Assembly (NCBI RefSeq): GCF_001488575.1
Contig: NZ_LN831302.1
Span: forward strand, 2,232,001 to 2,296,000
Reading direction: 5' to 3'
From: Halobacterium hubeiense
GTDB lineage: Archaea; Halobacteriota; Halobacteria; Halobacteriales; Halobacteriaceae
Length of the DNA: 64,000 nucleotides
Under the pieces are notes generated by a model that searched no databases, had not been told where the DNA came from, and worked only from the letters and a program-made list of their open reading frames with translations. Positions within the stretch are counted from its first letter, which is position 1. Every line of letters starts with the position of its first letter. A program made the translations under genes and the position numbers. Below, piece after piece: positions 48,806-61,524 of this stretch.

Positions 48806-49127
48806 ACAGTTTCATGGGCCAAATTCGCATATCAAGTGTGTGTGCTTGCGGATGTCACTGGGAGAATGATTTGTCGATAGTTCGGAGGTAGAACGGTTAG
48901 CAGTTGTTCCAAATACGGTTAGTCGAGTTTGGGTGTGGTATTCGCGAATTGGCAGGCACTGTTGAAACGCCAGACCTTCTCACAGGACCGCGTCAGGAAT
49001 GCGATTTTATCAGCGTCAAGGTGTTGATAATCGGCGTCAGCTGCCACACAGTTCGTTTGGGCATCACTCGCGTCAAGCGATTTTGACCCCCGAAGGCTTA
49101 CCACTGTTCTACCGGAACGTCCCCAGT
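48806..49127. other. Spacer without a recognised feature
   Basis: About 320 bp of moderate GC. The last 100 bp must hold the promoter for the quinoprotein-like gene. No repeat arm, tRNA or credible short gene is seen. Confidence 0.4.
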
Positions 49128-50300
49128 ATGCCCTCCCGGACGCGTCGCCAGGTCCTCGCAACAATCGGGACTGCAAGCGCCGCCCTCGCCGGCTGTCTCA
49201 CGCAGTCGCAGCCGTCCGGCGACCTCGGCGACGTCGCGGGCGCGTGGCCGATGGCCGGCCAGAACGCCAGTCACACGCGACAGGTTGACGCGAGCCCGAC
49301 GAACCCTGACTCCGTATGGAAAATCGAACTTGATGCTGCTCGAAGCACTGGCACGCCCGCATTCGCTGGCGGCCGACTGTACGTCCCCGTCGACGCAATC
49401 ACCGAGACCGCACGCCACCGCTACCGGCTCCACGCGCTGTCGGCGGCGACTGGTAGCGAGCGCTGGCAGGTGCCGCTGCGGTCGGAGCCGGTCGGCCCAC
49501 CCGCAGTGAGCGGCGACCACGTCGTCGTCACAGCCAAACGCGCGCTCGAACAGGGCCGCATCGTCGGCTTCGAGACACAGTACGGTGCCGAGGACTGGCT
49601 CGTCGACATCGACGCGCGACTGACTGCGCCACCGACGACCGCGAACGGCGTCGTCTACGTGCCCGACTGGCGTGGCCGCGTCCACGCGCTCCTGGTTGCC
49701 GACGGGACCGAACTGTGGTCACGCGACGTCGACATCGACGGTGGTCGGGGGACGTTCGCCAACGCAGTCGCCGTTAGGGACGGAACGGTCTACGTCGGAT
49801 CGTAGTCGGGCGAGACAGGCCTCGTCGCATTAAACACCCAGACTGGCGACACGCAGTGGACGGCGTCCACGCCGGCAATCACTGGCGGGCCAGTCGTTCA
49901 TTCGAACGGAATCGTCGTCCAGAGTCACCAACTCGTGATCGTGTTCGACCACGAGGGGACGCGCAAGTGGACGTTCAACGTCCGCGGAGACACGCAATGC
50001 CCGCTCGCCGTCGACGACCGCCACGTGTACGCCGCTACGCAGGACGCCCTCTACGCCATCGACCGGACGGGTGAGCAAGCATGGATGCATGAAGTGGCGG
50101 GCGCGCAGTTCGGCGCGTCGACTGTCGCTGGAGACTCGATTCTCGTGCAAGGGGATGGGCAGCTCATCGCGCGTTCGTCCCCGGCGGGCGACGAGCACTG
50201 GACAACCAATGCGAGTGGGCGTGGTCGTGTCATCGTCGCTCCGACTGCTGTCTTCCTTGCTGACGCTGCGACCGTAACCGCGCTCGGCAACCCCGAGTAG
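49128..50300 (+). pseudogene. PQQ-type beta-propeller lipoprotein gene with in-frame TAG
   Basis: The frame starts MPSRTRRQVLATIGTASAAL with lipobox LAGC, then propeller blades of the PQQ/quinoprotein type (RLYVPVDAITETARHRYRLH, NGVVYVPDWRGRVHALLVAD, DGTELWSRDVDI). A TAG at 49803-49805 interrupts it after TVYVGS. The same frame continues with more blades (GETGLVALNTQTGDTQWTA, VYAATQDALYAIDRTGEQAW) to TAG at 50298-50300. Without the stop it would be a full 390-aa propeller. Either half alone would lack blades. A recent nonsense mutation is likely. Confidence 0.8.
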
Positions 50301-53650: not shown

Positions 53651-55474
53651 ATGACGGATGACAATGACATGCAGCGTCGAAGTTTCCTGAAGGCCGCCGG
53701 CGGGACTGCCGCAGCCCTCACTCTGGCTGGCTGTTCCAGTAACGATAACGGCGGTAGCGGGACGACGACGGGTGATTCTGGCGGTGGCGAGACGACGACC
53801 ACGACCGAACAGAGCACCCGGGAAATTGCGAACCTCGCGATCGAGGCTGAGGACGATTACACGTTCTCCATGGAGCTCACTGGGCCGTTCCATCAGGTCA
53901 TGGAGATGCTCTCATACTCCTCGTTCGCTGCAGTTCCGGAGAATTACGTCGACGACCTGCCGGACGTTGACGGTGAAGTCGATCAGTCGACGTTCGGTTC
54001 CGAGGACCCCGTCGGGACGGGCCCCTTCCAGTTCGAGAGCTGGTCTGACGGGACCGCTGTTGACGTTACCGCGTTCGATGACTTCCACGGTGAGGGTCCT
54101 GAACTCGATGCGGTTCACTGGCAGGTCATTCAGGATTCCAACGCGAGCTACCAGTACGGCCAGAACCAGAACTCGGACATCGCGCCAATGCCGACGTCCC
54201 AATACGACCCGGATCTAATCTCCGTCGAGGGGACGGACGACCGTGACCGTGACTACGGCACGTACGGGCCGATGAACAACGGTGAGACGGCCAACTACCT
54301 GCGCGTGCTGTCTGCCGGGACGCAGTACCTGGGGTTCAACGCCCAGCAGGTCGAGAAGCCGGTTCGCCAGGCGGTTGCGTACGTCCTCAACCAGACATCC
54401 ATTGTCGAGGAGGTCTTCAAATCTCGTGGCCTCCCCGCGACGCACCTGACGCCGCCGACACTGTTCGACGGCGGGCAGGACGTCTACGACAGCCACGGCG
54501 AAGACTACCCCTACAGCGTTGACGAAGCGGACCTCGAGTCCGCTCGGCAGATCATGGAGGAGGCGGGCTACGGCCCGAACAACCGCGTGGAGATTACCTT
54601 CGCACACCAGGAGGGGACCTCACAGTACGCTGACGTCGCAAGTCTCCTTGGCGACCAGCTTCAGAGCGTCTACATCGACATCTCCGTCGAACCGACGCCG
54701 TGGTCGACGCTGCTTGAGCGCGGCCGGAACGGGAACCTCGAGATGTTCCTGCTGGGGTGGCTCATGGACTATCCGGATCCGCACAGCTTCATGCAGCTTC
54801 TCAATCCCGACTTCACGAACACCTCCGAGGCCGGCCCGCTTGCCTACACGGACTGGCGGGACACCGAAGCTGCGCAGGCGAACCGTGACGCCTGGGGAGA
54901 GATCACGGACAACCTTCAGCCGACTGACGAGGCCGCGTCCACTCGCCAGGAACGCTACCTCGAGATGGAGGAAAACAACTGGGAAGACGCCGTCATTATC
55001 CCGCTCTACCACCCATACGACGAGCGGATCTCTTACGACACTGTCGACATGCCCCGGTTCGGCAGCGCTGGTCCCAGCCGCCAGAAGCTCAATCAGGTCA
55101 CGAAGTCCGGTGACTCGAACACCTTCCAGGACGTTATGACCGGGTCGATTACGACGTTCGACCCCATCGCTGCCACTGACACGGCGTCCGGTGAAGTCAT
55201 CACCCAGCTGTTCGATGGGCTGATGCAGTATCCCAACGCTGAGGTCACTCCGGAAGGCAATCTTGCGACGGATTACGAGGTGTCCGACGACTACACGTCC
55301 TACACCTTCACGCTCAAGGAGGGTGTGACGTTCCACAACGGGAGTGAATTCACGGCCCAGGATCTGGTGTACTCCTGGAACCGGCTTGCGAACTCCCAGA
55401 ACAGCAACCGGGACTACTTCCTCCTGGACAATCTGGGCGTAGAGTACGAAACCGAAGAAATCGACGTCGAGTAG
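53651..55474 (+). CDS. dppA: Peptide-type ABC substrate-binding lipoprotein with permuted domain order
   Basis: 607 aa. Tat lipoprotein leader (MQRRSFLKAAGG, lipobox LAGC with Cys28), then a Gly/Thr linker. Residues ~58-475 correspond to the middle and C-terminal parts of SBP family 5: EAEDDYTFSMELTGPFHQVM, VGTGPFQFESW, WLMDYPDPHSFMQLL. Residues ~478-607 correspond to the family's N-terminal part: TTFDPIAATDTASGEVITQL, YTFTLKEGVTFHNGSEFTAQ, DLVYSWNRL. So the mature protein is swapped relative to the family while total length is normal. It would bind peptides or similar solutes outside the cell for DppBCDF, if it folds. First gene of the operon. Confidence 0.88.
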   Translation: MTDDNDMQRRSFLKAAGGTAAALTLAGCSSNDNGGSGTTTGDSGGGETTTTTEQSTREIANLAIEAEDDYTFSMELTGPFHQVMEMLSYSSFAAVPENYVDDLPDVDGEVDQSTFGSEDPVGTGPFQFESWSDGTAVDVTAFDDFHGEGPELDAVHWQVIQDSNASYQYGQNQNSDIAPMPTSQYDPDLISVEGTDDRDRDYGTYGPMNNGETANYLRVLSAGTQYLGFNAQQVEKPVRQAVAYVLNQTSIVEEVFKSRGLPATHLTPPTLFDGGQDVYDSHGEDYPYSVDEADLESARQIMEEAGYGPNNRVEITFAHQEGTSQYADVASLLGDQLQSVYIDISVEPTPWSTLLERGRNGNLEMFLLGWLMDYPDPHSFMQLLNPDFTNTSEAGPLAYTDWRDTEAAQANRDAWGEITDNLQPTDEAASTRQERYLEMEENNWEDAVIIPLYHPYDERISYDTVDMPRFGSAGPSRQKLNQVTKSGDSNTFQDVMTGSITTFDPIAATDTASGEVITQLFDGLMQYPNAEVTPEGNLATDYEVSDDYTSYTFTLKEGVTFHNGSEFTAQDLVYSWNRLANSQNSNRDYFLLDNLGVEYETEEIDVE

Positions 55475-55637: not shown

Positions 55638-56654
55638 ATGTCACGATGGACCTATCTGGGGAAGCGTCTCATCATGTCCATCCCGGTGATCATTCTGGGA
55701 ACCACACTGACCTTCGTCATCGTCCGCATGGGGCCGTTGAATCCCGTGGGAGCGATTCTTGGTCCCGACGCTAACCCTGCAGCTTACGAAAGCATCGAGC
55801 AACAGCTCGGGTTGAACCAGCCCCTCTGGGCACAATACATCGACTTCATGACTGACCTGTTTACGTTTGACCTCGGTCAGTCCTGGGTTTATAGCCGCGA
55901 CACAGGTACGTACGAACTGCTTGCCACCTACGCCCCCCGTACGATCTGGCTCGGCTTTTGGTCAGTCGTTATCGCGATCTTCATCGGGATTCCACTGGGT
56001 TTCTATGCCGGTCTCAACCCGAACACGTTCTCTGACTACCTTGCTTCCTTCGGCGGCATCGTGTGGCGCGCCATGCCTAACTTCTGGCTCGCGGTTATCC
56101 TGGTGGCCGTCCTTTCCAGTTCTGAAGACCTCCTCTTCGGGTTCGAATGGCAGACGTTCCTCGTCAATACACCAGAGATTGTGACGCCGCCCGACTTGTC
56201 AAACCTGACGGACCCGACGAGCCTGCTGCAGGCAATCAAGAAGATTGCTCCGGCCGCGCTCGTACTCGGCTCTTCGACGATGGGCAACGAAGTCCGACTC
56301 GCGCGAACAGCCGTCCTCGAAACGGTCAACTCGAACTACGTCGAAACCGCGAAGGCGAAAGGGCTACCAGGTCGGACTATCGTCTGGAAACACATCTTCC
56401 GGAACGCGCTGATTCCGCTCATCCCCGTGATTACCAACGAAGTGTTCATCCTCATCGGGGGCTCCGTTCTGGTCGAAACAGTCTTCGCCATCAACGGAAT
56501 TGGCTACCTGTTCTTCCAGGCGACGATTCAGGCTGACCTGCCGTTGGTTGGTTCGCTGATGTTCATCTTCATCCTGCTGATTGTAGGTGTCAACATCCTC
56601 CAGGACATCCTCTACACCATCGTCGATCCACGAGTGGGGTACGACAATGACTGA
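55638..56654 (+). CDS. dppB: ABC permease DppB-type
   Basis: 338 aa with six membrane helices. It has the N-terminal family features GTTLTFVIVRMGPLNP and DLGQSWVY, and the EAA loop NYVETAKAKGLPGRTIVWKH that docks on the ATPases. Forms the membrane channel with DppC. Starts 163 bp after the binding-protein gene and overlaps DppC by 8 nt. Confidence 0.93.
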   Translation: MSRWTYLGKRLIMSIPVIILGTTLTFVIVRMGPLNPVGAILGPDANPAAYESIEQQLGLNQPLWAQYIDFMTDLFTFDLGQSWVYSRDTGTYELLATYAPRTIWLGFWSVVIAIFIGIPLGFYAGLNPNTFSDYLASFGGIVWRAMPNFWLAVILVAVLSSSEDLLFGFEWQTFLVNTPEIVTPPDLSNLTDPTSLLQAIKKIAPAALVLGSSTMGNEVRLARTAVLETVNSNYVETAKAKGLPGRTIVWKHIFRNALIPLIPVITNEVFILIGGSVLVETVFAINGIGYLFFQATIQADLPLVGSLMFIFILLIVGVNILQDILYTIVDPRVGYDND

Positions 56655-58125
56655 CGACACAAGGACGACCGTGCAAGAGGACCTGACTTTCAAGCAACGA
56701 GTGCGGGCGAACCCCCGACCGGCGACTGTCTGGGTTGTGGGTGTCGCGGTTCTGATCGCACTCGAATTCGGCGCAATCTGGAGTACAGTGATGGGACTCC
56801 CGTGGAACGAAGTTGTGGGGGTTCTTCCAGCGGCTCCTGGCGCAAGTGTCCTTGCGGGTATCGGAGACGCCCTTGCCGACCTCCCCACTCTGCTGGACCG
56901 GAACCTCATCTCGAACCAGGGGTATCACGTCCCGGGCGAGGGCTGGCAGCAGACCTTCATGGGTTTGTCACCAGCAGCCGCTTGGGCACTTCGTGTCACT
57001 CTCGTCTACGTGTATGCGCTCGCGTGTATCGCCTGGGTTTGGAAGGGATACCGAACGTTCAGACAGCACTACCGCTACGCATCCTGGACCCCCCGCGACG
57101 ACATGATTGACCGGCTCCGGACGCACCGCTGGGGCCAGTTCGGGCTCGTTATCGTCGCGATGTTCCTGGTCCTTGCGCTGTTCGCTCCGACCATGGGGCC
57201 GACAACCCAGAAAGCGAATATTACTGAGCCCTATTCACACGAGATGCAGTACTACGACTCCGAAAGCGGTGAAGTCGCCACCATGGTGGTCGGCTTCGCG
57301 AACCAGGAGTCCCGGTCCCGTGGCGCAGGCGATTCGAACGTCGCCCCCCTAACCTATGACTCGTTCGATAGATACCATCCATTCGGGACATTACCTAATG
57401 GGAAAGACCTCTTCACATTCCTCGCATACGGGGCTCGTCTCTCCCTCTTTATCGGGCTCGTCTCGATGGGGCTTTCGGGAGCAATCGCGCTTTCCATGTC
57501 CATGATCACGTCGTACTATAAGGGGCTTGCAGACTTGCTGACAGTCGTTACCAGCGACTCGATCATGGCGCTCCCACAGCTCCCGCTCATCATCCTGTTG
57601 ACGCAGGTTCTCAGTGGCAACCCGATCTCGAACTACTACAACGGAGCGCTGCTGTTAGCTCTCATCTTTGCCTTCATGTTCTGGCCACCACTGTGGCGGT
57701 CCTTGCGTGGGCCTGCACTCCAGGTCTCCGAGCAGGAATGGATCGATGCGGCCAAGAGCTTCGGCCAACGCCCACGGACGACGATGCGGAAACACATCGC
57801 GCCCTACGTCCTCGGCTATCTCCTCATCTACGCCTCGATGTCCCTGGGCGGTGTCATCATCTCCACAGCCGGGCTGTCCTTCCTCGGCCTCGGCATCACC
57901 GCGCCGACCCCCGAATGGGGGCGGGCGATCGACCTGGGGCAGGATTACGTGACGACGCAGTCCTGGCATATCTCCCTGCTTCCGGGGATCTTGATCGTAC
58001 TCGTCGTCACGGCATTCAACGCGCTTGGTGACGGTATCCGTGACGCGATCGACCCGCAGAGCGAGGCAGCTGAAAGCGGCGAAAGTGGTGAATCTGGCGC
58101 TGCAGCAACTGGAGGTGGCGCATGA
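56647..58125 (+). CDS. dppC: ABC permease DppC-type with N-terminal extension
   Basis: 492 aa, about 150-180 longer than bacterial DppC. Two extra membrane helices (about 26-46 and 100-122) precede the usual start (HRWGQFGLVIVAMFLVLALF). The canonical part has FGTLPNGKDLFTFLAYGARL and the EAA loop EWIDAAKSFGQRPRTTMRKH. The ATG at 56647 is chosen over the upstream in-frame ATG 56587 because it overlaps DppB naturally. Ends in a Gly/Ser-rich tail overlapping the next start (ATGA). Confidence 0.92.
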   Translation: MTDDTRTTVQEDLTFKQRVRANPRPATVWVVGVAVLIALEFGAIWSTVMGLPWNEVVGVLPAAPGASVLAGIGDALADLPTLLDRNLISNQGYHVPGEGWQQTFMGLSPAAAWALRVTLVYVYALACIAWVWKGYRTFRQHYRYASWTPRDDMIDRLRTHRWGQFGLVIVAMFLVLALFAPTMGPTTQKANITEPYSHEMQYYDSESGEVATMVVGFANQESRSRGAGDSNVAPLTYDSFDRYHPFGTLPNGKDLFTFLAYGARLSLFIGLVSMGLSGAIALSMSMITSYYKGLADLLTVVTSDSIMALPQLPLIILLTQVLSGNPISNYYNGALLLALIFAFMFWPPLWRSLRGPALQVSEQEWIDAAKSFGQRPRTTMRKHIAPYVLGYLLIYASMSLGGVIISTAGLSFLGLGITAPTPEWGRAIDLGQDYVTTQSWHISLLPGILIVLVVTAFNALGDGIRDAIDPQSEAAESGESGESGAAATGGGA

Positions 58126-59213
58126 ACTCTGATACGATGACAACTCCGACCGACGCAGACGACCGCGAGACGCTACTCTCAGTGTCGAACCTTCGTACGT
58201 CGTTCTACACTGACAAAGAAGTGATTCGTGCGGTAGACGGTGTCGACTTCGAAATCCGCGCTGGTGAAACGGTCGGTATCGTTGGGGAAAGTGGGTCTGG
58301 AAAAAGCGTTACTGCTCGGTCGATAATGGGGCTGGTCGAATCCCCCGGTCGTATTGAGCCCGACAGTAGCATTCAATACCGCGGCAACGAGTTGACCACG
58401 AACTCGGAATCCGAATGGCAGGATATCCGGGGCGGGGATATTGCCATGGTCTTCCAGGACCCGCTGACGAGCCTGAACCCGGTCTACACCGTCGGCAACC
58501 AAATCAAGGAAGCACTTCGTCTCCACCAAAATCTCCGTGGGAGCGAGGCAACGAAAGAAGCAACTCGCCTCCTGCAAGAAGTCGGGATTCCGGACGCACC
58601 TCGGCGCCTTCGGGAGTACCCACACCAGTTCTCTGGTGGGATGCGGCAACGGGCCGTTATCGCGATGGCGCTCGCGTGTGATCCGTCAGTCCTCATCTGT
58701 GACGAGCCAACGACAGCCCTCGACGTCACGATCCAGGCACAGATTCTGGAGCTCTTAGATAAGATTCAAGAAGAGGAAGGTATCGGCATCATGTTCATTA
58801 CCCATGACATGGGTGTCATCGCAGAGGTGTCTGACCGCGTGAACGTGATGTACGCCGGCGAGTTCGTCGAGAGTGCTCCTGTCGAGGACCTCTTCGAAAA
58901 CCCGAAACATCCCTATACACAGGGTCTGCTCGAAAGCATCCCGTCGAAAAACGCCGGGAAGCGCCGCCTGGACACAATTGAGGGCGAGGTGCCGACCCCG
59001 ACTGACGACCCGACGTACTGCCGGTTCGCGCCCCGGTGCCCGAAGGCTTTCGACGAGTGTGAGGTAGTCCACCCGGAGTCAGTCCAAGTACAATCGGACG
59101 TCGACCATTCCGCGGCGTGCCTCCTGTACCCGGATGAGCAGTCTACCGAGGAGCGAGTTACGACACACCAAGCAGCAGGTGATGACGCAGCAGAAACGGG
59201 TGAGAGCCAATGA
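58122..59213 (+). CDS. dppD: ABC ATPase DppD-type
   Basis: 363 aa. Walker A GESGSGKS, signature SGGMRQRAVIAMALA, Walker B LICDEPTTALD and the H-loop ITHD are present. The C-terminal oligopeptide-transporter segment YCRFAPRCPKAFDEC ... CLLYP carries the family's cysteines. Energises uptake with DppF. Overlaps both neighbours by ATGA. Confidence 0.94.
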   Translation: MNSDTMTTPTDADDRETLLSVSNLRTSFYTDKEVIRAVDGVDFEIRAGETVGIVGESGSGKSVTARSIMGLVESPGRIEPDSSIQYRGNELTTNSESEWQDIRGGDIAMVFQDPLTSLNPVYTVGNQIKEALRLHQNLRGSEATKEATRLLQEVGIPDAPRRLREYPHQFSGGMRQRAVIAMALACDPSVLICDEPTTALDVTIQAQILELLDKIQEEEGIGIMFITHDMGVIAEVSDRVNVMYAGEFVESAPVEDLFENPKHPYTQGLLESIPSKNAGKRRLDTIEGEVPTPTDDPTYCRFAPRCPKAFDECEVVHPESVQVQSDVDHSAACLLYPDEQSTEERVTTHQAAGDDAAETGESQ

Positions 59214-60535
59214 GCAAGCAACTACACGCAGACGATACGGACGCAACACAGGGTGAGACGCTCGTCAACGTCCAAAATCTCAAGAAATACTACGGTGAGG
59301 ACGGCTTGCTGAGCAAGCCACCGGTCAAAGCCGTTGACGGGGTCAACTTCGAGATTCGACGCGGTGAAACGCTTGGTCTCGTTGGCGAGTCCGGCTGTGG
59401 TAAATCCACTCTCGGTCGCACACTCATCCAGCTCGAACGAGCAACGGAGGGGGTCGTCGAATTCAACGGCGTGGATATTACCACCCTGAAGAAGGATGAG
59501 TTGAAAGAATGGCGCCGCAATGCGCAGATGGTGTTCCAAGACCCGGAATCCAGTCTCAACAATCGGATGACTGTCGGTGAAATCATCCGTGAACCGCTGG
59601 ACGCGCACGACTGGAAGACTCCGCAAGAACGCCGGGAACGTGTCCGTGAGCTACTCGACACCGTCGGCCTCCAGAAGGAGCATTACTTCCGATATCCCCA
59701 CCAGTTCTCCGGCGGCCAACGACAGCGGGTTGGGATTGCTCGGGCGCTCGCCTTAGAGCCGGACTTCCTCGTGCTTGACGAGCCGGTTTCTGCACTCGAC
59801 GTGAGCGTACAGGCGAAGATCCTGAATCTACTGATGGACCTACAGGACGAGTTCGGGCTCACCTACCTGTTCATCGCCCACGACCTCTCTGTCGTCCGCC
59901 ACGTCTGCGACCGAACGGCAGTGATGTATCTGGGGAACATTATGGAGATCGGTGACACGGAGGAGCTCTTCACCGACCCCGCGAATCCCTATACGCATTC
60001 GCTGTTGTCGGCAATCCCGAAACCAGACCCGGGCAGTTCCGCCGACCGGATTACGCTCCGTGGGACCCCACCAAGCCCCCGCGACCCGCCGTCTGGCTGT
60101 CCGTTTAGTACCCGCTGTCCGATGAAAATCCGCCCGGACGAGTACGATGACCTGGATATGGAGGTTTGGCGCGGGATTGACGAGTACCTGACTGTACTGC
60201 GGAGCCGTGCGGATGCCGACCAGTCGCTCACCGAAACTGTCAAGGGGCTGTTGGGGATGGATGTCGGCCAGGAGGATATCGACGACGTCGCTGCTGAAAT
60301 CTTCGAAGACCGCTCGGTGCCCGATAACGTCGAAGGTATCATCAACAAGGCGACGGCGAATGCACAGGCAGATGAATTCGATGCTGCAATCGAGACGCTT
60401 CTCGATAGCTTTGGGAGCATCTGTGACCACGAAATGCCTGAATACCATACTGTTGGCGGGAGAGAGAGTCTTTGCCACCGCCATCAGCAGGAATACACGG
60501 GCACAGCAGAGTATTCGACAATAGTCGACGACTAA
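59210..60535 (+). CDS. dppF: ABC ATPase DppF-type with a long C-terminal insertion
   Basis: 441 aa, about 100 longer than usual. Walker A GESGCGKST, signature SGGQRQRVGIARALA and Walker B LVLDEPVSALD are intact. In the C-terminal segment CPFSTRCPMKIR is separated from CDHEMPEYHTVGGRESLCHR by about 100 acidic helical residues (DEYDDLDMEVWRGIDEYLTV ...), where the family normally has fewer than 15. The inserted part may contact a regulator or stabilise the protein in salt. Stop overlaps the next ATG (TAATG). Confidence 0.92.
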   Translation: MSKQLHADDTDATQGETLVNVQNLKKYYGEDGLLSKPPVKAVDGVNFEIRRGETLGLVGESGCGKSTLGRTLIQLERATEGVVEFNGVDITTLKKDELKEWRRNAQMVFQDPESSLNNRMTVGEIIREPLDAHDWKTPQERRERVRELLDTVGLQKEHYFRYPHQFSGGQRQRVGIARALALEPDFLVLDEPVSALDVSVQAKILNLLMDLQDEFGLTYLFIAHDLSVVRHVCDRTAVMYLGNIMEIGDTEELFTDPANPYTHSLLSAIPKPDPGSSADRITLRGTPPSPRDPPSGCPFSTRCPMKIRPDEYDDLDMEVWRGIDEYLTVLRSRADADQSLTETVKGLLGMDVGQEDIDDVAAEIFEDRSVPDNVEGIINKATANAQADEFDAAIETLLDSFGSICDHEMPEYHTVGGRESLCHRHQQEYTGTAEYSTIVDD

Positions 60536-60960
60536 TGGTTGGGATTCGCGGGCGACAGCTCATAGACGCCGCTGGCTACGCCGTCGCTGTTGTGCTTTCC
60601 GTGTCCGTGTTCAGCCTCCTCATTATGGCTGTGACAGGAACCAGCTTGTTTGTCGCGGAGTTCAGCATGTTTCTCGCCGGCTGGGCGATTATCGCGTACA
60701 GTCTCTTCCTATTGAATCCGGAGGCGCCTTGGACCGTTGACCGAACCGAAGAAGGGCGCTTACGAGTGACGAAAACGGCGAACGAACCAGATCCACCGCG
60801 TGGTGAGACTTGGTTTCAACGAAGCGTCCAACGGTTCCCCCCGATGGTTTGGTATCCCCTATCGCCCGATGACCGGATTTCAACGGGGCTGAAACTGTTC
60901 ATCAGCGGCGTACTCACGCTCGTTGTCTCCTTTATATTTGAACGAACGGTGGTAGTTTGA
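60535..60960 (+). CDS. Small membrane protein at the end of the dpp operon
   Basis: 141 aa with three hydrophobic helices (about 13-35, 38-58 and 118-138) around a soluble loop (PEAPWTVDRTEEGRLRVTKT). Its start codon shares a base with the dppF stop, so it is co-translated with the transporter. Role unknown, perhaps an accessory membrane factor. Confidence 0.75.
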   Translation: MVGIRGRQLIDAAGYAVAVVLSVSVFSLLIMAVTGTSLFVAEFSMFLAGWAIIAYSLFLLNPEAPWTVDRTEEGRLRVTKTANEPDPPRGETWFQRSVQRFPPMVWYPLSPDDRISTGLKLFISGVLTLVVSFIFERTVVV

Positions 60961-60999
60961 CAGGCAAGGCCTATATGCGAATCCAATTAAACCCAACCC

Positions 61000-61524
61000 A
61001 TGGTCGAATACACCGGTACATCTCCCTCTGATGGCCGGAACGGTGCACTCGATGTTCACAAGAGTGCATGGAAGAAGACGCTCCAAGAGTTAGAAGCGCA
61101 GGTTGAGCGTTTGGAGGACGACGGCTGGCAAACGGTGGCTTTCCCGGCTGGACACACAGGCCCGGAAGTCCCAACTGATGGGGATGAGGACAATAATCGG
61201 TTCGGCCTCACGCACATTATTCCGGGAAACAAAGCCGACGAACTTCTAAAGCTTCGTGAGAAGGGGTCGTTCGAAGATTACCAAGTCTTCAAGAATAGCG
61301 TTCATGGGCAGGAGTTCGTTCTCACGGCCATTTTGGACCACCCCACGGAATCGGTCGTCCTGATCGCGGGGAACTACCGCCAACAGCGTGCGGAACCGCT
61401 CAAGGAGATCGCGATGGACGAAGATGTGATGTACAGCCATATCCGGAAACTCGATGGGTCGTATATTGCGACGTTTGAACACGAGGATCCGGCCCACTTC
61501 TTCCCGGAACTGAACGATTCGTAG
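61000..61524 (+). CDS. Conserved haloarchaeal soluble protein
   Basis: 174 aa. Begins MVEYTGTSPSDGRNGALDVH, then a helix (KTLQELEAQVERLEDDGWQT), LTHIIPGNKADELLKL, and strands VLIAGNYRQQRAEPLKEIAM and YIATFEHEDPAHFFPEL. No catalytic motif known to me. A leaderless start is plausible: ctatatgcg lies about 25 bp upstream. The family seems haloarchaea-specific. Function unknown. Confidence 0.75.
   Translation: MVEYTGTSPSDGRNGALDVHKSAWKKTLQELEAQVERLEDDGWQTVAFPAGHTGPEVPTDGDEDNNRFGLTHIIPGNKADELLKLREKGSFEDYQVFKNSVHGQEFVLTAILDHPTESVVLIAGNYRQQRAEPLKEIAMDEDVMYSHIRKLDGSYIATFEHEDPAHFFPELNDS

Follow-up and report, generated by a model that had tools for sequence, protein, structure and literature searches.

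The gene at positions 53651-55474 of the window (the whole 64,000-nucleotide stretch of Halobacterium hubeiense DNA that was analysed) very likely encodes a substrate-binding lipoprotein of family 5 (SBP_bac_5, DppA/OppA-type) that is a genuine, natural circular permutant, as judged without reads, expression or protein data for the strain. Rotation of the chain, with three cut loops (A, B and C), has in all likelihood happened at least five times in the orthologous haloarchaeal gene.

Block order of the window gene

The open reading frame is intact on the forward strand, extending from an ATG at 53651 to a TAG stop at 55472-55474 and encoding 607 aa. It includes the residues quoted in the earlier note, which had described a Tat/lipobox leader followed by the middle, the C-terminus and finally the N-terminus of an SBP family 5 protein. 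This description held in every detail that was checked, and also the claim of a normal total length held, the standard orthologues being mostly 592-650 aa long. The gene is composed of the following parts:

53651..53734, + strand: Tat leader with lipobox, residues 1-28, MTDDNDMQRRSFLKAAGGTAAALTLAGC; TAT_signal PF10518 at residues 6-26
53735..53815, + strand: Ser/Gly/Thr-rich linker, residues 29-55, between the putatively lipidated Cys and the folded domain
53816..55105, + strand: blocks M1-M2-C in first place, residues 56-485, corresponding to the middle and the C-terminal part of SBP_bac_5 (Pfam, alignment and block profiles)
55106..55129, + strand: joint, residues 486-493 within QVTKSGDSNTFQDV, where the ancestral C-terminus meets the ancestral N-terminus of the mature protein
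55130..55471, + strand: block N in last place, residues 494-607, which is usually the N-terminal part of SBP_bac_5 (profile and alignment)

The export signal was recognised by Pfam (TAT_signal), and the lipobox LAGC is located at residues 25-28, Cys28 being assigned by eye and by pattern. The Pfam model SBP_bac_5 (PF00496) matched the protein with an E-value of 5e-69 in two stretches. The better of these, residues 58-385 corresponding to profile positions 62-361, comes first in the protein, and the second, downstream stretch starts at profile position 2. The E-values exclude chance matches, and only SBP_bac_5 (cluster C) families were matched.

When the two parts were aligned separately with a standard haloarchaeal orthologue of 606 aa (S_G046), residues 60-485 corresponded to its residues 179-604 (46%) and residues 494-606 to its residues 64-175 (56%), and the window protein has therefore undergone neither large loss nor duplication. 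The blocks are not in the usual order N-M1-M2-C but in the order M1-M2-C-N. The protein is a permuted homologue of SBP_bac_5 and not a standard member: it has the same blocks in a cyclic shift, with the ancestral ends joined, the new ends in a loop and no duplication. The two pieces of the window protein have the same nearest relative (L157_S), which argues for one rotated gene instead of a fusion of two. A fusion of pieces from two different parents was thus disfavoured for the window.

The SBP gene is adjoined by two permease genes and two oligo_HPY ATPase genes, all intact, as in a Dpp/Opp-type importer operon:

55638..56654, + strand: permease 1 (DppB-like), PF00528 BPD_transp_1 and PF19300
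56587..58125, + strand: permease 2 (DppC-like), PF00528 and PF12911 OppC_N
58122..59213, + strand: ATPase 1 (DppD-like), PF00005 and PF08352 oligo_HPY
59210..60535, + strand: ATPase 2 (DppF-like), PF00005 and PF08352
60472..60960, + strand: DUF7555 protein, PF24432; downstream of the operon in several related loci
61000..61524, + strand: DUF7529 protein, PF24373; close to the operon in most related loci

The true start of permease 2 is likely to be later than 56587, as the homologues align from about residue 20. The DUF7555 and DUF7529 genes (window 60472-61524) have the same relative place in many other loci, and a functional link is possible. Elsewhere in the window, the open reading frames 48999-49805 and 49935-50300, which share one frame, look like a single repeat-rich lipoprotein gene broken by a stop codon (48999-50300).

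Four cyclic orders across Halobacteriales

The survey included altogether about 440 sampled Halobacteriales genomes. An alignment running from the ancestral C-terminus into the ancestral N-terminus was searched against 392 of the Halobacteriales genomes, and the result was sharply bimodal: 71 loci matched the full joint (≥191 bits), and the rest matched only the N half (≤182 bits). The four blocks were then mapped with profiles in the proteins of these 71 loci and of 24 standard loci. Each block was present exactly once in 95 of the 95 proteins, in four cyclic orders: the standard order N-M1-M2-C (n = 24), type A with M1-M2-C-N (n = 2, the window protein and that of G022), type B with M2-C-N-M1 (n = 27) and type C with C-N-M1-M2 (n = 42). 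A class-wide search added seven more permuted loci, four of type C and three of type B, bringing the totals to 2, 30 and 46 loci for types A, B and C, respectively, in 77 genomes. Outside the order, no permuted loci of types A, B or C were found in the phylum sample. Since the observed cuts served to define the blocks, the result is that three cuts exist, not that there are four natural units.

Across the four orders the orthologous SBP is mostly found in the same operon, and the cassette of SBP, two permeases and two ATPases has the same arrangement in related loci as in the window. All four partner genes adjoin the SBP gene in 88 of the 95 loci. In the megaplasmid of Halorubrum ezzemoulense (L174:6863-8653), the gene of the standard-order orthologue WP_049933237.1 is divergent from its permease genes.

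A back-translated pattern search of the contigs of other genomes produced only three distant Bacteriovoracia proteins, in which such blocks as could be recognised followed the standard order. One match that seemed to span the joint, on a Thalassococcus plasmid, was rejected: it begins within the dipeptidase gene upstream and extends into an SBP gene that is separate from it. Another such match, on a Phyllobacterium plasmid whose record lacks annotation, was left unresolved.

The earlier note had named an assembly error as the main alternative, the window order then being a misjoin of a standard gene arising in sequencing or assembly. No reads are available for this strain to exclude a misjoin, and type A is rare, with two loci only. 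Against this explanation, the window order is shared by G022 (locus L011), an independent genome that represents a different genus within the same family; the match to it is collinear in one piece over residues 1-607 with 49% identity. Furthermore, 76 other permuted loci with other cuts come from independent assemblies, and the window gene itself has an in-frame reading frame, an intact leader, clean block ends and repeat-free joints, no long repeat able to mislead an assembler being present at the window junctions. Assembly error is all but excluded. The haloarchaeal search identified G022 as the only other type A locus. The earlier note's implied picture of an isolated case did not hold: the SBP of this operon occurs in three permuted orders, and there is also a separate permuted SBP_5 class (see below).

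Number of permutation events

For the trees, the permuted blocks were restored to the standard order for alignment only, and events were counted as label changes on the trees. The IQ-TREE tree of 54 SBP proteins needs five changes of order, and the FastTree tree of 95 SBP proteins agrees with this number. Also the permease and ATPase trees, which represent an independent data set, need five. Type B forms one clade (100/100). Type C is placed in two positions, a large clade that is sister to four standard proteins and, apart from it, G306, whose sister is the standard protein of G046 (99/97). Likewise, type A is placed in two positions: G022 has the standard protein of G018 as its sister (100/93), and the window protein is found elsewhere among the standard proteins, with a long branch and a weakly supported placement. 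The conclusions on type A rest on these two examples only. The direction from standard to permuted is inferred, because the standard order is general in the family; OppA and DppA, for instance, whose structures are solved, agree in order with the standard orthologue.

Alternatively, there may have been one ancient permutation, with the termini shifted later and the five changes produced by tree error or gene exchange. In favour of this are the alike joints of the window, G022 and G306, and the AU test, which did not reject the window protein and G306 as one clade (p = 0.12). The cuts of these two differ, however, and therefore at least two events are needed for them even if they do form one clade. 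With the SBP proteins, the AU test rejected a single clade of all permutants (p = 1.5e-10), of all type C proteins (p = 8.8e-46) and of the type A pair (p = 4.9e-5), the last of these being rejected also with the partner genes (p = 0.007). The sister relationships of the large type C clade and of G022 to standard proteins likewise speak against a single permutation, and every different cut would still need its own event. One ancient permutation is very unlikely, and the reading of at least five separate rotations is retained.

The joints of the window (55100-55150), G022 and G306 (joints of L049 and L150) have a common pattern, T-x-x-x-[IV]-[LM]-T-G-[ST]. This pattern is absent from the aligned standard proteins. 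The likeness of the joints in these independently placed proteins could be the result of convergence or of an unseen exchange.

Predicted fold and cut sites

The AlphaFold2 model of the window protein was confident (pLDDT 91.1, pTM 0.88), with only residues 1-45 disordered (pLDDT <50). It includes strands at both new ends (residues 55-62 and 599-605), and the residues of the joint, 486-493, are mostly loop. The standard orthologue was modelled with a pLDDT of 87.2 and a pTM of 0.84. The alignment used was made of homologue fragments, including the native joints of types B and C, and the window model therefore indicates compatibility with the fold and is not proof of it. Within this limit, the window chain is predicted to close into a two-lobe binding protein.

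With Foldseek, which aligns structures in chain order, the best target TM was 0.58 for the permutant and 0.87 for the model of the standard orthologue, as would be expected if the fold were the same and the chain order different. The matches of the permutant to DppA and OppA were partial, as a chain-order alignment must be. When placed on the standard model, all cuts are located in loops: cut A after block N and ahead of the strand pair with which M1 opens, cut B after helix 404-415 and cut C before helix 536-550. The loops at cuts A and C differ in length among the standard relatives.

It could also be argued that the rearranged gene is a degenerate, non-functional remnant that is read through without giving a working binding protein. 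The window protein has a long branch (0.84), and the genome includes an orphan fragment from the N-terminal part of a standard SBP, so that such genes do decay here. Against this are the full-length reading frame, the intact leader and partner genes and the confidently closed predicted fold, as well as the persistence of types B and C across many genera with the operon kept. A remnant is very unlikely, and the order shared with G022, the partner genes and the predicted fold support the earlier claim that the gene is a natural permutant whose operon has intact permease and ATPase genes.

The orphan fragment (53% identical) is the sole other close piece of the gene in the window's genome. It encodes 131 aa (L058:10346-10741; G000:C1 about 332412-332765, minus strand), comes from a different, standard-order SBP and is near the standard protein of the congener G009, being likely the leftover of a lost gene.

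A second permuted class

The genome of the window includes a second permuted SBP_bac_5 protein of 660 aa (L003/L177; G000:C2 about 288196-289866, minus strand), which belongs to a different, distant subfamily. Its order is late M2, C, N, M1, early M2, the cut (cut D) being just past the end of the AGY helix. The joint of this protein has collinear relatives in about 52 of 293 haloarchaeal genomes, and more distant one-piece matches in addition. By block position, roughly 14 of ~51 SBP_5 genes in seven genomes have cut D, a count that is approximate as the profiles are weak at that distance.

Cut D was detected also on alphaproteobacterial plasmids, with permease and ATPase genes nearby, in three proteins:

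L227:4926-6524, Nitratireductor sp. OM-1 WP_113156578.1: late M2, C, N, M1, early M2
L228:4764-6374, Maritalea WP_117397031.1: late M2, C, N, M1, early M2
L229:4635-6320, Roseomonas WP_237182973.1: late M2, C, N, M1, early M2

In the Nitratireductor protein, residues 211-523 correspond to residues 27-337 of a solved structure and residues 50-173 to its residues 359-477. The alphaproteobacterial proteins are annotated simply as ABC transporter substrate-binding proteins, and no description of the cut-D permutation was found in the open-access literature searched. Both the cut-D proteins and the window protein are of the SBP_bac_5 type, and several of the former have their own permease and ATPase genes, but the cut-D proteins differ in representing a distant subfamily with a different cut and in being widespread.

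Proposed function and route of permutation

In the proposed scheme, the leader and linker have remained in front while the mature domain has been rotated, the ancestral C- and N-termini being linked by a short loop and the new termini placed in the loop between N and M1. The permuted protein would be exported by Tat and anchored by its lipid, both of which are inferred, and would then capture peptides and pass them to the adjacent DppBCDF-like importer; also binding and transport are inferred. The lipid tether would enter the permuted fold at a different point. In the DppABCDF family, the SBP catches the peptide between its two lobes and docks on the permeases (PMC12136057). By analogy, the permuted form is likely to work as an SBP of this type, the tether point aside.

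Tat exports folded proteins, and it is possible that this lifts a constraint on chain order. Permuted SBP_5 proteins are, however, present also in alphaproteobacteria, one of them (WP_113156578.1) with a seemingly ordinary Sec leader, as judged by eye, and Tat is therefore probably no general requirement.

The route at the DNA level is undecided between duplication with deletion and fission with fusion. The earlier note had proposed that a tandem duplication combined with deletions, or else the shuffling of a cassette, was responsible, and this was not shown: in the flanks of the 95 loci, no leftover of a duplicated or neighbouring block was found above noise, either past the stop or ahead of the start. 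A Pfam match running on past the window stop was considered as a fossil and rejected, nothing above noise being present in the 95 loci. The survey included no fused double SBP intermediate and no two-gene split form; the 965-aa reading frame of L151, a candidate for a fused double SBP, holds each block only once. RNA structure after the stop codon was no different from that of shuffled sequences.

A possible route, compatible with the permutant itself, is that instead of duplication and deletion there was a fission followed by fusion in reverse order, or a fusion of pieces of two paralogues. The end product would be identical, the flanks lack a duplication remnant and the genome does have an orphan N-terminal piece. 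The nearest relative shared by the window pieces argues against two parents, and the absence of a two-gene split SBP from the survey is likewise against this route.

A bolder reading of the rotations, held with rather more doubt than confidence, is that this SBP is a permutation hot spot, favoured by something, with one order including at least five rotations at three cut loops. Within this reading, a DNA process by which the leader stays in place while the remainder is rotated is conceivable, and so is selection on the entry point of the lipid tether, perhaps made tolerable by the Tat export of folded chains. If the hot-spot reading is true, a further instance would be the second permuted SBP_5 class, which is present both in these genomes and in alphaproteobacteria.

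Relation to known systems

The window protein is homologous to DppA, OppA and MppA (cluster C) over all four blocks, and the operon is of the same type as Dpp/Opp, with partner genes matching DppBCDF-type families. The difference is in the rotated chain (type A, M1-M2-C-N), by which the tether enters elsewhere in the fold. The relatives of this SBP in the PDB are OppA, DppA, MppA and DppE, and a sequence search found no relative with a rotated order there.

Natural permutation of a binding protein is already known. Tp0684/TpMglB-2 of Treponema pallidum ('Cluster Bc') is a naturally permuted ABC-importer binding protein with a solved crystal structure (PMC4990184). It is a lipoprotein that has retained ligand binding and closure, and its authors propose that membrane anchoring may be the reason for the permutation (PMC4990184). 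In contrast to the window protein, which matches cluster C families only, TpMglB-2 belongs to a different fold cluster (type I, cluster B, glucose; permuted N lobe), and the published description is of a single topological class and not of an orthologous gene that was permuted repeatedly. No paper on a permuted SBP_5, DppA or OppA was found in the open-access literature, subscription journals and preprints being outside the scope of the search. As far as searched, the repeated permutation of one orthologous SBP_5 gene is new.

The rearrangements are also in a blind spot of annotation: the Pfam model can match a type C permutant, G306, in a single ordered stretch, and the annotations seen for cut-D proteins omit the permutation. 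Natural circular permutations are usually thought to be rare, and each is typically presented as an old, single event by which protein families became separated. In the present case, the orthologues of one operon coexist in four orders, several of them with close standard relatives, and they form a natural series for asking how permutations originate, which loops tolerate new ends and what the position of the tether means for the importer.
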